A program made the translations under genes and the position numbers. A DNA stretch of 64,000 nucleotides from the NCBI GenBank assembly GCA_002030045.1, contig LQBI01000031.1, forward strand, positions 124,001-188,000, given 5' to 3'. Below, piece after piece: positions 11,045 to 17,870 of this stretch. The notes beneath the pieces are model-generated. The model worked only from the letters and a program-made list of their open reading frames with translations. It made no database searches and was not told where the DNA came from. Within the stretch, counting starts at the first letter, position 1; every line of letters begins with the position of its first letter. This stretch comes from Candidatus Aegiribacteria sp. MLS_C (GTDB lineage: Bacteria > Fermentibacterota > Fermentibacteria > Fermentibacterales > JCC-6).

Positions 11045-12283
11045 CTACTCCCTTTCGGGAAGAAGCGAGCGCATGTTGACCGTGGAGGGTATCACCGGGT
11101 AGTCTATCACGACCCTGTAGGTCCTGAAGAGATTCGGGTCCCAGTCCAGCCTTGCGAACACATCCTCCATCATCTCGGTGTACCATGGAAGATATGGTGA
11201 GTACATGGCCCGGACGCCGAATCCCAGCTTCTGTATGGATGCCTCTATCGGAAGACAGCTGTTGGGATTGCGGAATTCCGCCGCCCTGGCCCAGTCGTAG
11301 CCGGTGAACTCCCCGAAGACGAACAACTCCGGATCCATGGGGCCTATCAGGTCCCTGTGGACTATCTGGTCGAAGACCAGCCGTTCCACAGGCGTCCTGG
11401 ACCTGACCAGCACCTCCCGGTACCTGTCCTCCCTGGTCCTGTAGCTTGAGAACACGCTCCTGGCAACCTGTGCGGTAATGCAGGTCATTGCCTCGGTATT
11501 GCCTATGGGAGCTTCCTCCAGTTCGTGGACCACCCGTCCCTCGCATTTCCTGGAGCTTACCACGTTGGGCAGGGGCGCGGAGCAGAAGCTGTAGTAGAAA
11601 GGGACGCCCATGTGGTTCTCCGTACCCTCCGGGCATGCCTCCAGGGGCTGCACCTGTACGAAGCTCTTCGGGACGTTCTCGTCGTCGGTGAAGTACGCCC
11701 ACTCCAGGAGCCAGGGCACGTTGGGCCTGTTCCTGCGGAAATCGACGAACCCCCTGATACTGGCGATGTCATGGTACAGGCCGTCATCCGAAGGACAGAA
11801 GACCCATGTGCAGAGCTGGGTGGCGGCCTGTACTCCCAGCAGGTGGCTGTAGGCGGTGAAAGCGGCCTTCTGCTGGGACAGGAACGCCTTCGACCTGCCC
11901 TTGTCGGAGCAGGCCAGGAGCATAAGGTCGAACTCCTTCCTGCTGTCCGCATGCTTTTCAACCATCTCGTCGAAGGCCTGGCACGCTTCCCTTGCCCGTT
12001 TCAGGAGCTTCTTCGAAGTGCCGAGCTTCTTGCACAGCTTCATGAAGTTGCGGCAGGCGGCCTTGCCCGGCACGAACTGGGCGGCAAGGAAGGGGTCATC
12101 CTCGCAGATCACGTTGTAGATCTTCCATCCCAGCTTCTTGTCTATGTTCAGCTTCTTGTAGACGTCCCGCGGGTTGTCAACGGATATGTCGAGCCCGTGG
12201 AGTATCTCTCCGAGGATGTTCTTCATCATGACTACCGTGGAACTGATGTCCTCACCGAAACACATGCTGTCGTAGTTCTCCAT
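11045..12283 (-). CDS. hypothetical 412-residue cytoplasmic protein
   Basis: The start is taken at ATG 12283 after an AGGAAAGGAAA run; the frame extends 35 codons upstream, but that part is Cys/Pro-poor filler without a binding site. There is no signal peptide or membrane helix. The first ~130 residues are helical and Lys-rich (DVYKKLNIDKKLGWKIYNVI) and look like a DNA-binding or helical bundle module. The remainder is mixed, with many Trp, Tyr and Cys. I do not recognise a family. Upstream, TTGTTT and CATAGT with a 17-nt spacer could be its promoter, divergent from the candidate selenoprotein. Confidence 0.65.
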   Translation of the reverse strand: MENYDSMCFGEDISSTVVMMKNILGEILHGLDISVDNPRDVYKKLNIDKKLGWKIYNVICEDDPFLAAQFVPGKAACRNFMKLCKKLGTSKKLLKRAREACQAFDEMVEKHADSRKEFDLMLLACSDKGRSKAFLSQQKAAFTAYSHLLGVQAATQLCTWVFCPSDDGLYHDIASIRGFVDFRRNRPNVPWLLEWAYFTDDENVPKSFVQVQPLEACPEGTENHMGVPFYYSFCSAPLPNVVSSRKCEGRVVHELEEAPIGNTEAMTCITAQVARSVFSSYRTREDRYREVLVRSRTPVERLVFDQIVHRDLIGPMDPELFVFGEFTGYDWARAAEFRNPNSCLPIEASIQKLGFGVRAMYSPYLPWYTEMMEDVFARLDWDPNLFRTYRVVIDYPVIPSTVNMRSLLPERE

Positions 12284-12381
12284 AATCCGTTTTCCTTTCC
12301 TGAACAGGCATTTACTATGTTCGATCCGGTCAGGCGAAACAAGACTCCGGCAGCAGCAGCAATGGGGGACAATTGCAGTTC

Positions 12382-12410
12382 TTGACACGTTTCTGGAAAC
12401 AGTCGATATT
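12382..12410 (+). promoter_or_regulatory. candidate promoter of the selenoprotein gene
   Basis: TTGACA (12382-12387), 17-nt spacer, GATATT (12405-12410). The -35 is perfect. It predicts a 5' untranslated region of about 100 nt before ATG 12520. Confidence 0.5.
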
Positions 12411-12519
12411 TACCTCCGTAGCCAGGACTGACAGGGAATTGCCGGTCCGGGAACCCGAAGGCGTTGCTGCTGTTCCTTTTCATAGTCATCCTGTATGTTA
12501 TTGCTCGAAAGGAGAAGAC

Positions 12520-13518
12520 ATGAGATTCACTCTTGTATTACTTTCCATTCTGGCGGCTGTGGCCCTCTCGGCCGAGAGGACCGTACTCTGGGAGTACTTC
12601 ACCCAGACCGGTTGACCCACCTGCTACAGCAGCTGGTCAGCTGTTAAGAGTGCCATCAACCCCTTCCTCACCTCCGGCGATGTAGCTCCACTCTACATCT
12701 TCTACAACGGTCCCGCCGCATGTGCCTTCAACTCGACCAGGTTCAGCTTCTACGGCGTCGGGGCGACACCCACGGTCAAGATCGACGGGCTCGCGTCCGG
12801 CTATGCGCCCTCGGGATACGCGACAGCCATCAACAACAGGCTGGCGGTCCCCTCCTACGTGGACATCGACGTTACAATGGTGGGCGATGCCTCCGGCGGC
12901 ACCGCGTACATCAGTGTCACAGCCGAGGAGGAGCCCTCCCAGACCTATCCTATCAAGGTCTGGTGCGTGATCACCGAGGACCACGACATTGCCGCCGGAA
13001 CAGGCTGGGGCGGGTACACGAACATGGAGATGATGTGGCTTCCCCGTGCATGGCCACTGGGGACCCAGGGCCAGGCGCTGAACTTCACGGGCCCGTACCC
13101 GCAGACCCTGAGCGTGGCCGGGGACTACACCCTCGACCCCTCACAGCACCAGTTCGACAACCTGAACGTGACCACCTTCGTCCAGTACACATCCGGCACA
13201 AGGGAGTGTCTCAACGCCGACCATATGGACATGCCCGACACGGCTACCGGAGTCTACGGCGACGAGGAGGGTTACTCACCAGTCACGCTCCTCACCGCAG
13301 GGCCCAACCCTTCCAACGGGGCCGTCACCATCAGCTGCGGGCTTCCCGCAGGAGTGGCCGGGACGGTAAGGGTATTCGATATAACCGGCAGGATCGTGAA
13401 TTCCTTCCCCGCCGGGGATGCCGTCGAAACCCAGCTGGCGGAAAGCGGCGTCTACTTCGTGCACCTGAGCACTACCGGAGGGGAATCGGTCAGGAGACAG
13501 ATCACCGTAATAAGGTAG
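12520..13518 (+). CDS. secreted thioredoxin-like selenoprotein (TGA read as Sec)
   Basis: ATG 12520 has AAAGGAG 5 nt upstream. Residues 1-17 are a signal peptide, and EYFTQTG leads to TGA at 12613-12615. The same frame then continues for 300 codons without a stop. TGA occupies the first position of a redox motif (Sec32-Pro-Thr-Cys35), just where Omp28/thioredoxin-like FCB proteins have CxxC. The cis-Pro loop GATPTVKIDG follows. A Por-type sorting module closes the protein (VRVFDITGRIVNSF; ESGVYFVHLS). A hairpin fitting bacterial SECIS rules follows the TGA. Total length with Sec is 332. It is likely an exported thiol oxidoreductase. The alternative is a nonsense mutation of a Cys codon. Confidence 0.8.
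12613..12645 (+). promoter_or_regulatory. candidate bacterial SECIS element
   Basis: After TGA 12613-12615, a 7-bp stem AGCAGCT (12628-12634) pairs with AGCTGTT (12639-12645; one G-U) around the tetraloop GGTC (12635-12638). The loop begins 19 nt after the TGA and has G in its first two positions. Published bacterial SECIS rules ask for a short stem, a loop with an early G, and roughly 16-37 nt spacing; all are met. Confidence 0.7.
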
Positions 13519-13539: not shown

Positions 13540-13575
13540 GAAGGGGCGGCCGGTCCGGACGCCCCTTCGACTTTT
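13540..13575 (+). terminator. intrinsic terminator of selenoprotein gene
   Basis: GAAGGGGCG (13540-13548) and CGCCCCTTC (13560-13568) with an 11-nt loop, then GACTTTT. It ends just before the stop of the convergent gene at 13588. Confidence 0.75.
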
Positions 13576-14024: not shown

Positions 14025-14630
14025 TCAGGTGTTGCAGAAATGCTTATCCAGGTAGTAGGCCAGAAGCCTCCTGGCCTCCTCCTCGCACTCTCCGCAGGAG
14101 GTGCCCACCTTGGTCTTCTCCTGCAGCTGGTAGTAGTTCCTGGCTCCCTCAAGGACCGCGTGCTCTATCTCGTCCTCGGTGATGTTGAGGCACTGGCAGA
14201 CCACCCGTGAGCCGGTGTCGTGGACCCTGTCCTCCATACCGATGGAGCGGTAGTAGTTGTCTATAGCCCTGCGCAGGGCCTTGTCGCCGAGGACGGAGCA
14301 GTGTACCTTGTTCTCGGGGAGCCCGCCGAGCTGCTCTATGATGTCCCTGTTGGAGATTCTGTATGCGTCCTCGAGTTTCATGCCCTTCACCATCTCGGAG
14401 AGGACGGATGTGCTGGCTATGGCGCTGGCGCACCCGAAGGTCTTCCACCGGCAGTCCGTGATGGTCATCGATTCGGGGTCTATCTTCAGGTAGAAGGTCA
14501 TCTCGTCGCCGCACTTGATGTTGCCGGTGGTTCCCTTCGCGTCGTACTCGAAGCCCTCCTCGTCGTACATGATGTTCTTCGGGTCCATGAAGTGCTCCTT
14601 GACCCGGTCCGAGTACAGCCAGTCGCTCAT
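14025..14630 (-). CDS. nifU: NifU-type Fe-S scaffold (IscU + BFD [2Fe-2S] domain)
   Basis: 201 residues. Residues 1-~130 form the IscU scaffold, with its three cluster Cys in GNIKCGD, FGCASAIAST and HCSVLG. Residues ~140-195 form a BFD-like [2Fe-2S] domain (VVCQCLNIT and TSCGEC), as in the middle domain of NifU; the C-terminal Nfu domain is absent. It assembles clusters from sulfur delivered by the cysteine desulfurase encoded immediately upstream. The two genes overlap by 4 nt (ATGA). Confidence 0.92.
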   Translation of the reverse strand: MSDWLYSDRVKEHFMDPKNIMYDEEGFEYDAKGTTGNIKCGDEMTFYLKIDPESMTITDCRWKTFGCASAIASTSVLSEMVKGMKLEDAYRISNRDIIEQLGGLPENKVHCSVLGDKALRRAIDNYYRSIGMEDRVHDTGSRVVCQCLNITEDEIEHAVLEGARNYYQLQEKTKVGTSCGECEEEARRLLAYYLDKHFCNT

Positions 14631-15811
14631 CTGCAGCTCCCGCCCCAGGCAGTGGACATCTTCCTCAGTCTCCGCACCACGCCCGGAAGGACCTCGAGCA
14701 CCCTCTCGACGTCGTCCTCCGTTGTGGACCTCCCCATGCTGATGCGAAGGGATCCGTGACTGTACTCAACGGGAAGACCCATCTCGAGGAGCACATGGGA
14801 AGGGTCAAGGGACCCCGACGCGCATGCGGAACCGGTGGAGACCTCTATGCCCTCCATGTCGAGATACAGCAGCATGGCCTCCCCCTCGACGCCGGCGAAG
14901 GAGACGTTCAGCGTCGAATGTACGCAGTGTTCCGGGAAGCTGTTGAAGTGAATGTCGTCTATCCTTTCAATTATTCCTTCCCTGAGCCTGCGGTTGAGGG
15001 CCTCAAGCTTCCTTCCCTCGGCTTCCATCTCCAGTCCCCTCATTTCCGCAGCGATTCCGAATCCCGTTATTCCCAGGGTGTTCTCGGTGCCCGCCCGTCG
15101 TCCCATTTCCTGGTGGCCGCCTCGGATCAGGGGACAGAAGGGCGTGCCCCTCCTTACATAAAGAGCGCCCACCCCCTTGGGTCCGTATATCTTGTGGGCC
15201 GAGACCGTCAGGAAGTCCACTTCCAGTTCTCTAACGTCAACCGGTATCTTGCCCACGGCCTGTACGGCATCGGTGTGGAAGAGGGCTCCCGCCCTGTGGG
15301 CGAGGTCCAACGCCGTACGAACATCCTGTATCGCACCTGTCTCGTTGTTCACCATCATGATGGAAACCAGCGACGTATCCCTGGCGAGGGCCTCCTCGAG
15401 GTCCTCCATCCTGAGCAGGCCACGTTCATCGACGCCTATCCTGGCCACGCTTGCGCCGCGGTTCTCAAGACATTTGGAGGTCTCGAGGATACACGGGTGC
15501 TCGATGGTGGAAGTGACCAGCTGGCTCTCGACCGAAGGATGGATGCCGCACTGCGCCCCGGTGCAGCCGAGGATTGACAGGACGGTGTTGTTGGCCTCGG
15601 AGCCGCTGCCCACGAACATCATATCCCCGGGTTCCGCGTTTATCAGCGCCGCCACCCTGCCCCTTGCCTCCTCAAGCAGAGCCCTGGCCTCCCTGCCGTC
15701 GGCGTGGAGGCTGGATGGATTCCCGTAGAGGTCCATGGAGTCTATGATCGACTTCCTGACCTCGGGATGCAGTGGAGTCGTCGCGTTATGGTCCAGGTAG
15801 ATCCTCTTCAT
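14627..15811 (-). CDS. nifS: cysteine desulfurase, NifS/IscS family
   Basis: 394 residues from ATG 15811 (GGAGAG just upstream); an in-frame start nine codons earlier lacks a site. This PLP enzyme converts Cys to Ala plus enzyme-bound persulfide. The N-terminal IYLDHNATTP, PLP Lys207 (SAHKIYG) and catalytic Cys330 (STGSACASGS) are intact. It donates sulfur to the adjacent scaffold. It could also mobilise selenium from selenocysteine, which would be relevant to the nearby candidate selenoprotein, though the sequence does not show that. Confidence 0.95.
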   Translation of the reverse strand: MKRIYLDHNATTPLHPEVRKSIIDSMDLYGNPSSLHADGREARALLEEARGRVAALINAEPGDMMFVGSGSEANNTVLSILGCTGAQCGIHPSVESQLVTSTIEHPCILETSKCLENRGASVARIGVDERGLLRMEDLEEALARDTSLVSIMMVNNETGAIQDVRTALDLAHRAGALFHTDAVQAVGKIPVDVRELEVDFLTVSAHKIYGPKGVGALYVRRGTPFCPLIRGGHQEMGRRAGTENTLGITGFGIAAEMRGLEMEAEGRKLEALNRRLREGIIERIDDIHFNSFPEHCVHSTLNVSFAGVEGEAMLLYLDMEGIEVSTGSACASGSLDPSHVLLEMGLPVEYSHGSLRISMGRSTTEDDVERVLEVLPGVVRRLRKMSTAWGGSCR

Positions 15812-15980
15812 CTTCTCTCCAGGTTCATGAAACCTCATATCCGTCGACGCCCCGTGATTATGTGCCTGCCCAACGTGAAATGCAACCGCTCATAGCCGGT
15901 TCCCCTCCATTGTCCCCGGAGCGGACCTTGGACATGTTTTCCTTCTTGGCGGTAAAAAAAAGGAAGGAACGGGGTCTCCC

Positions 15981-17870
15981 ATGAACAGGAACAACAGTCT
16001 CAGGGACAGGTTGAGCTACGCTTTCGACACCATGATGTCCCGGGGGACGTCCGGTCTGATGATCTGGCTGGGTGTCCTCTCGGTGGTGCTGATAGTCGCC
16101 TTTTCGCTTGTGGTCATCCTGACACGGACAGCCCCCGAGGGGGAGAACTTTCTCGAGATTACCTGGATGAGCCTCATGAGGACCCTGGATCCCGGTACCA
16201 TGGGTGGAGACCAGGGAACCCCCCTCTTCCTCATGGCGATGCTGTGCGTCACGCTGGGGGGCATCTTCATAATAAGCACCCTGATAGGCATAGTGACCAC
16301 CAGCCTCGAGGCGAAGCTGGAATCGCTCCGCAAGGGCAGGTCCAGGGTGATGGAGAGCGGGCATACCGTGATCCTGGGATGGTCCGAGCAGGTCTTCACC
16401 ATAGTTTCGGAACTGACCATAGCCAACGAGAACCAGAAGAACCCGTGCGTGGCGATACTGGCAGAGATGGACAAGGTGGAGATGGAGGACGAGATAAGGA
16501 GCAAGGTCCCAGACACTCGAAACACCAGGGTGGTGTGCCGGACCGGCAGTCCCATGGAACCCGCCGATCTTGCCATAATGAGCCTCGGCACCTCGAAGTC
16601 CATAATAGTGCTCTCGCCGGAGGGGGACGATCCCGACCCCGAAGTGATCAAGGTCATGCTGGCAATAGTGAACGATCCGGAACTATCCTCCGTGGACCTC
16701 AACGTCGTGTCCCTGGTGAGGGACCCGGAGAATCTCCAGGTCGCAAGGATCGTTGGAAGGGACAGGGCGGAGATCGTCCTGGCCGGCGACCTGGTTGCCA
16801 GGATGGCGGCCCAGACCTGTCTTCAGTCGGGCCTCTCCGTGGTGTACCAGGAACTCCTGGACTACGGCGGTGATGAGATCTACTTCCACATGGAACCATC
16901 ACTGGCCGGAAGCAGGTTCAGGGAGGTCCTCTTCATGTACGAGAACAGCACCATAATGGGAATCAAACCCGCAGATGGTCCCCCGGTGCTGAACCCGCCC
17001 ATGGACACCGTCCTCGAGGAGGGCGACAGCCTCATCGCCATTTCCGAGGACGACGACACCGTGGTGCTTTCCGGAAGGGAGACCTTCGACGTATCCGAGG
17101 GTGCTATTCGAAGCGACAGTCCCGTTGAGAACACCCCGACCAGGATCATAATGCTCGGCTGGAACTGGAGGGCTCCCATCATAATCAGGGAGCTGGACAG
17201 CTACCTGATGCCGGGATCCTACTTGCGCGTAGTGGCCAGGGGGGAGATGTGTGACTTCGGCGGACAGGAACCGGGACTGGAAAACCTCGAGCTGGAGTTC
17301 ACGCCGGCGGACACCACCGATCGTAAGATCCTGGAAAGTCTGGATATAGCGGGCTTCAACCACATCATCCTGCTCTGCTACACCGATCACCTGGAGGCAC
17401 AGGAGGCCGACTCGGCCACACTGATGACGCTCCTCCACATCCGGGACATAACCGGGGGCTCGAAGGCCGGGTACACGATAGTAAGCGAAATGAAGGACAT
17501 TCGGAACAGGAACCTGGCCGAGGTGACCGGAGCCGATGATTACATAGTCAGCGACCAGATGCTGAGCCTGCTTCTGACGCAGATATCAGAGAACCGGTAT
17601 CTAAGCGGCGTGTTCTGGGACCTCTTCGACCCGGAGGGATCGGAGATCTATCTCAAGCCGGTGAGCAGGTTCGTCAGTCCAGGCGAGCCCGTGAACTTCT
17701 ATACGGTTGTGGAGAGCGCGGCCCGCAGGGGAGAGGTGGCCCTGGGGTACCGTATCGCCGCTCTCAGGGATGATGCCGAGAGTTCCTACGGAGTGGTCGT
17801 CAATCCCGACAAGGGGAAGACGGTGGTCTTCGATGACAAGGACATGGTGATAGTTCTGGCGGAGGACTGA
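15981..17870 (+). CDS. CASTOR/POLLUX-like ion channel with two RCK domains
   Basis: 629 residues. Two transmembrane helices (about 26-48 and 84-107) flank a pore-like loop with FLEITWMSLMRTLDPGTMGG, as in the CASTOR/POLLUX/DMI1 family. Two regulator-of-conductance (RCK, TrkA-N-like) domains follow (from about 128, HTVILGWSEQVFTIVSEL, and about 388, RIIMLGWNWRAPIIIREL). Bacterial members are probably ligand-gated cation channels of the inner membrane. The gene stands alone, with a predicted plus-strand start after GGAACGGGG. Confidence 0.88.
   Translation: MNRNNSLRDRLSYAFDTMMSRGTSGLMIWLGVLSVVLIVAFSLVVILTRTAPEGENFLEITWMSLMRTLDPGTMGGDQGTPLFLMAMLCVTLGGIFIISTLIGIVTTSLEAKLESLRKGRSRVMESGHTVILGWSEQVFTIVSELTIANENQKNPCVAILAEMDKVEMEDEIRSKVPDTRNTRVVCRTGSPMEPADLAIMSLGTSKSIIVLSPEGDDPDPEVIKVMLAIVNDPELSSVDLNVVSLVRDPENLQVARIVGRDRAEIVLAGDLVARMAAQTCLQSGLSVVYQELLDYGGDEIYFHMEPSLAGSRFREVLFMYENSTIMGIKPADGPPVLNPPMDTVLEEGDSLIAISEDDDTVVLSGRETFDVSEGAIRSDSPVENTPTRIIMLGWNWRAPIIIRELDSYLMPGSYLRVVARGEMCDFGGQEPGLENLELEFTPADTTDRKILESLDIAGFNHIILLCYTDHLEAQEADSATLMTLLHIRDITGGSKAGYTIVSEMKDIRNRNLAEVTGADDYIVSDQMLSLLLTQISENRYLSGVFWDLFDPEGSEIYLKPVSRFVSPGEPVNFYTVVESAARRGEVALGYRIAALRDDAESSYGVVVNPDKGKTVVFDDKDMVIVLAED

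Follow-up and report, generated by a model that had tools for sequence, protein, structure and literature searches.

The window analyzed in this study is a stretch of 64,000 nucleotides from Candidatus Aegiribacteria sp. MLS_C, an uncultured member of the phylum Fermentibacterota. The features found at the locus are listed in Table 1. The reading frame at 12520-13518 begins with ATG at 12520, contains a single in-frame TGA at codon 32 (12613-12615), and ends with TAG at 13516-13518. The TGA occupies the first cysteine position of a redox motif, U-P-T-C, which is of the thioredoxin-type UxxC form, and it is followed by 300 sense codons; a preliminary description of this DNA had stated these points, and they are read directly from the sequence. 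The N-terminus of the product is hydrophobic and is followed by an ER/DR pair, a pattern kept in the family members listed, and it is likely to be a signal peptide. The same description had claimed an intact promoter and an intact terminator, and our scans did not bear out either claim. That is, the promoter scan found one promoter-like site against 0.5 expected by chance, so that the match at 12382-12410 is not above chance, and the terminator scan, by its own rule, called none at the hairpin of 13540-13568, of which the tail has four T residues.

Table 1. Features at the locus (positions are those of the window)
Feature	Position	Strand	Basis or remark
Divergent conserved neighbor, 447 aa, no Pfam match	11045..12388	-	Retained next to the Sec gene within the genus, 57-86% identity
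Weak sigma-70-like promoter match, TTGACA-17-GATATT	12382..12410	+	Scan, not above chance
Ribosome-binding site AAAGGAG, 5 nt 5' of ATG	12508..12514	+	Sequence
Predicted selenoprotein gene, 332 residues, Sec at residue 32	12520..13518	+	Full-length homologues with one TGA
Predicted domains of this gene: HBP35/Omp28-like Trx domain, beta domain, type IX sorting tail	12520..13518		
Probable signal peptide, MRFTLVLLSILAAVALSA	12520..12573	+	Sequence
TGA predicted to encode selenocysteine 32, which opens the UxxC motif	12613..12615	+	Sec/Cys exchange among homologues
Partner cysteine 35 of UxxC	12622..12624	+	Invariant, 30 aligned members
Predicted bacterial SECIS hairpin, 7-bp stem, loop GGTC (12635-12638)	12628..12645	+	Pairing and covariation in Sec genes
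Proline 84, presumed cis-Pro of Trx fold (TPT)	12769..12771	+	Invariant, 30 aligned members
Predicted type IX secretion C-terminal sorting domain (TIGR04183 / PF18962)	13303..13503	+	Profile matches over cut-off
Possible terminator, GC-rich 9-bp hairpin, T tail of 4	13540..13568	+	Sequence only
Convergent NifU-like and NifS-like (aminotransferase class V) genes	14025..15838	-	Conserved neighbors across the genus

In order to clarify how the TGA is read, we compared the gene with its homologues. In a search of 146 genomes, homologues with exactly one TGA turned up in 27 of the 42 that belong to the same order, including the genome that carries the window, which excludes a sequencing error at this codon. 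In all fetched homologues that cover the position, the aligned codon was TGA in 53 distinct loci, of which 48 belong to the same order and five to distant genomes, it was TGC or TGT in 37, and no other codon was found; a cysteine aligned to the TGA, for which the preliminary description had asked, thus exists in many homologues. The second cysteine of the motif was kept in the homologues that were read. In an alignment of 30 members, residue 32 (Sec in 29, Cys in one), Cys-35, Pro-84, and Gly-90 are invariant. Against the nearest relative, the 300 gap-free codons after the TGA gave a dN of 0.151 and a dS of 1.283 (dN/dS about 0.12), and third-position changes predominate after the TGA in all pairs compared. 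These results indicate that purifying selection persists beyond the TGA.

The hairpin 3' of the TGA was then considered. Its arms, 12628-12634 and 12639-12645, form seven pairs; with the T of the TGA counted as 0, positions 15-21 pair with 26-32 and the loop lies at 22-25. In the gap-free alignment of 44 Sec genes, 96.1% of the cells in the stem columns are paired, and in 30 cells both sides of the pair are changed. Covariation scores 0.383, a value that was reached in none of 500 shuffles, and the values for slid versions of the stem were at most 0.101. The number of pairs changed on both sides (four) and the number of pair types (nine) were not above those of shuffles, and therefore it is the other three measures that support the SECIS. 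When given no guidance, RNAalifold picks exactly the stem at 12628-12645. In contrast, the same columns in 34 Cys paralogues are paired in 37.4% of cells and show no covariation. The 7-bp hairpin with a GGTC loop at the proper spacing and with the loop G, as first described, is thus seen to covary in the Sec genes and to be lost in the Cys paralogues. The loop is GGTC in 26 genes and otherwise CGGG, CGGT, GGCC, GGGC, GGAC, or AGGT. In four Sec genes (L042, L073, L075, and L077) the 5' arm appears, by eye, to be shifted two bases further on, with the loop AGGY; the counts of pairing, covariation, and loops cover the Sec genes other than these four and the five distant ones. The stem overlaps the coding sequence, and where the stem varies so does the peptide (SSWSAV to SSAGAV), in agreement with a constraint acting on the RNA. 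A search of Rfam gave no SECIS match. A model built on the hairpin scored 60 bits at its own gene when run against the whole genome, and the next score was 16 bits (E 1); that is, this search found no further gene of the same SECIS type in the genome.

The genome that carries the window (2.98 Mb, 98% complete) has as its closest named relatives Candidatus Fermentibacteria, Aegiribacteria, and Sabulitectum, of the former Hyd24-12 division. The search for sel genes, which had been proposed as a check, found all four: selA (511 bits), selB (298 bits for the N-terminal part, and 319.9 when the neighbor in frame is included), the tRNA-Sec encoded by selC (75 bits, anticodon TCA), and selD (323 bits). 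Neither the absence of sel genes nor the absence of an aligned Cys, which the preliminary description had named as grounds for rejection, is thus seen here. Nearly every genome of the order has selA, the exceptions being four genomes of which the completeness does not exceed 77%. The selD of the same genome (L143:1501-2424) itself contains Sec, in GPCAGUAGK, and ordinary annotation may therefore truncate this gene too.

Standard annotation would end the ORF at residue 31 or begin it downstream, in line with the gene being a pseudogene or the TGA an error for a Cys codon, and this reading, refuted by the occurrence of the TGA in 27 genomes, by the low dN/dS after it, and by the covariation of the SECIS, has a negligible chance of being correct. 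Another explanation is that the TGA is read through as some other amino acid, by suppression or an altered code, with no selenium involved. The frame would indeed stay open with any residue at this codon. However, Cys is the sole replacement among the homologues, the genome has the sel genes including the tRNA-Sec with anticodon UCA, and a covarying SECIS follows the TGA. In addition, neighboring genes use TGA as a true stop, the NifU-like and NifS-like genes both ending in it, and there is thus no general recoding of TGA. We therefore regard readthrough without selenium as very improbable. Taken comprehensively, the in-frame TGA very probably codes for selenocysteine, and the identification of 12520-13518 as a selenoprotein gene is a secure computational prediction, of which we are close to certain. 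The preliminary description was thus correct in its main points.

In a tree of 84 rows, the Sec copies of Fermentibacterota cluster together, as 43 Sec rows with a single Cys row nested among them (support of the whole group 82, not starred), and the Cys paralogues form a separate group of 33 rows. The tree requires four changes between Sec and Cys, against a mean of 27 after shuffling. The nested Cys row is L076 (G026:C28:15056-16027), the lone copy with TGC inside the Sec clade, which is without the conserved hairpin and is a probable reversion from Sec to Cys. The genome carrying the window has one Sec copy and one Cys paralogue, and certain genomes within the order have tandem sets of two or three Sec copies (G021, G022, G039, G040; L067, L068, L026, L036). 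The presence of Sec and Cys paralogues in the same genomes offers a natural comparison of Sec with Cys on one fold. A homologue in Candidatus Sabulitectum silens (L064:3001-4249) is split into pieces in different frames, probably broken by frameshifts or assembly errors.

As to the fold, the thioredoxin domain was not recognized in Pfam or in sequence searches of the PDB, and the fold search alone revealed it. The AlphaFold2 model, made from an alignment of 11 sequences, has a mean pLDDT of 76. Its best match is HBP35 of Porphyromonas gingivalis (PDB 5y1a), with a Foldseek E-value of 2.8e-13 and a structural Z of 22.5 (223 residues, rmsd 2.8) over residues 16-244; the next best match has a Z of 15.8. 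According to the model, the two proteins would have the same arrangement of a thioredoxin domain, a beta domain, and a type IX sorting tail. In contrast, HBP35 has CxxC with two active cysteines and the product studied here has UxxC; HBP35 belongs to Bacteroidota and shares 15% identity with the product, and neither phmmer nor a profile search of PDB sequences detected homology between them. We therefore infer a shared function from the fold and the architecture. The thioredoxin activity of HBP35 is abolished by mutation of its two active-site cysteines (PMC2907840), and the Por (type IX) system sorts HBP35 to the surface (PMC3120885).

A known feature of HBP35 is hemin binding, and the protein aids growth when hemin is scarce (PMC2907840). 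Since HBP35 is the nearest solved fold, the selenoprotein might mainly bind heme or a metal and not act on disulfides. We think this improbable, because the UxxC motif, the invariant Pro-84, and the exchange of Sec and Cys would all indicate redox catalysis.

The type-IX-like sorting end that had been described before is upheld by the profile searches. The C-terminal domain scores 34.4 bits with TIGR04183 (cut-off 23) and 31.9 bits with PF18962 (cut-off 27), and all 30 family members scanned match TIGR04183. The genome encodes SprA, a type IX translocon protein (403 bits summed, cut-off 200). In the model, the structural matches to the tail include the ends of PorZ (Z 8.8) and PorU (Z 8.1), along with many other Ig-like domains of similar Z. 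Considering that the search for type IX machinery in this genome covered SprA alone, the selenoprotein might be periplasmic or be secreted by another route, its C-terminal domain being merely an Ig-like adhesion domain. The TIGR04183 match throughout the family and, in the predicted structure, the apparent resemblance of the tail to the C-terminal domains of PorZ and PorU speak against this, and we regard it as unlikely, although it has more in its favor than the heme-binding or readthrough explanations. Sorting by the type IX system is thus the reading that we prefer. Omp28-like selenoprotein candidates were also seen in distant genomes (L113, L114, L115, L116, L117, and L125). Three of the four distant candidates scanned (L113, L117, and L125) exceed the cut-off of TIGR04183 with their type IX tails, and the combination of Sec with type IX therefore extends beyond the same order. 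Judged from the sequences, the predicted UxxC/type IX arrangement is conserved across the whole phylum.

We next compared the product with known families. Pfam searched with the product alone gave no match to Omp28 (PF11551); 16 of 30 members matched it at E <= 0.01, and eight matched NF033782 (Omp28 lipoprotein). As to Omp28, the earlier description is borne out by Pfam in these members of the family but not in the product alone. Neither PF11551 nor NF033782 is a selenoprotein family. Ocean metagenomes led in 2008 to the first prediction of GOS_C, a UxxC protein of the thioredoxin fold (PMC2398784), and it is NF045500 in the 2026 inventory of 119 selenoprotein families and subfamilies, in which outer-membrane selenoproteins are already listed (PMC13188914). 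The view that an exported selenoprotein of this kind would be unusual is right only in part, given these precedents, of which GOS_C is distantly related. GOS_C/NF045500 and the product have in common the thioredoxin fold, UxxC, likeness to Omp28, and a predicted SECIS, but the product scores 13.5 bits with NF045500, the Omp28-related selenoprotein model of NCBI (cut-off 200), a member that exceeds the cut-off occurs in none of the 146 genomes, and the matches of 12 of 30 family members are weak (relatives up to E 5.9e-10). By these profile scores, the product is a distant relative of GOS_C and not a member. Sec-containing thioredoxin and thiol-disulfide isomerase-like selenoproteins likewise have UxxC on a thioredoxin fold, but they are not described in PMC13188914 as type-IX-sorted, HBP35-like proteins. 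Among the papers found, none connected selenoproteins to Omp28 or to Fermentibacteria, and the only one with both a selenoprotein and type IX secretion was unrelated.

The action of this gene can be considered as follows. At codon 32, ribosomes with SelB and Sec-tRNA(UCA) would read the UGA as selenocysteine under the direction of the hairpin, whose start lies 15 nt 3' of the U of this codon. The selenoprotein would be exported by its signal peptide, and the type IX system would carry it over the outer membrane through the C-terminal domain, so that it would then be displayed on the surface or released. In the thioredoxin fold, Sec may be the attacking residue and Cys-35 the resolving residue, with Pro-84 as the cis-Pro, and the fold may reduce or isomerize disulfides or related sulfur species, as HBP35 does with CxxC. 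The insertion of Sec, the surface location, the catalytic activity, and the substrate are what we infer here, and we consider the explanation as a whole, namely a Sec protein with a surface location and a redox function, to be quite probable. The family seems best read as a subfamily, found throughout the phylum, of surface thiol-disulfide oxidoreductases that resemble HBP35 and Omp28 and have Sec as the attacking residue.

We speculate, tentatively, that Fermentibacterota may send surface selenoenzymes out by the type IX system to act outside the cell on disulfides, polysulfides, or other sulfur species, and that selenium rather than sulfur may serve as the catalytic atom in a redox process that these anaerobes carry out extracellularly. 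Because such enzymes would act outside the cell, they would have to be kept reduced by electrons passing across the cell envelope. Selenocysteine is costly, and if a phylum-wide, duplicated, surface-sorted family does exist, the export of selenium chemistry would pay for an anaerobic fermenter. The family would tie Sec to type IX secretion, and it is easily missed, because ordinary annotation truncates its genes at the TGA.

With regard to the neighborhood, the NifS-like desulfurase encoded downstream could possibly be linked to the supply of selenium, which is only a guess. Further along the window, 15981-17870 encodes a bacterial protein homologous to the CASTOR/POLLUX ion channel of plants (PF06241, E 2e-27).
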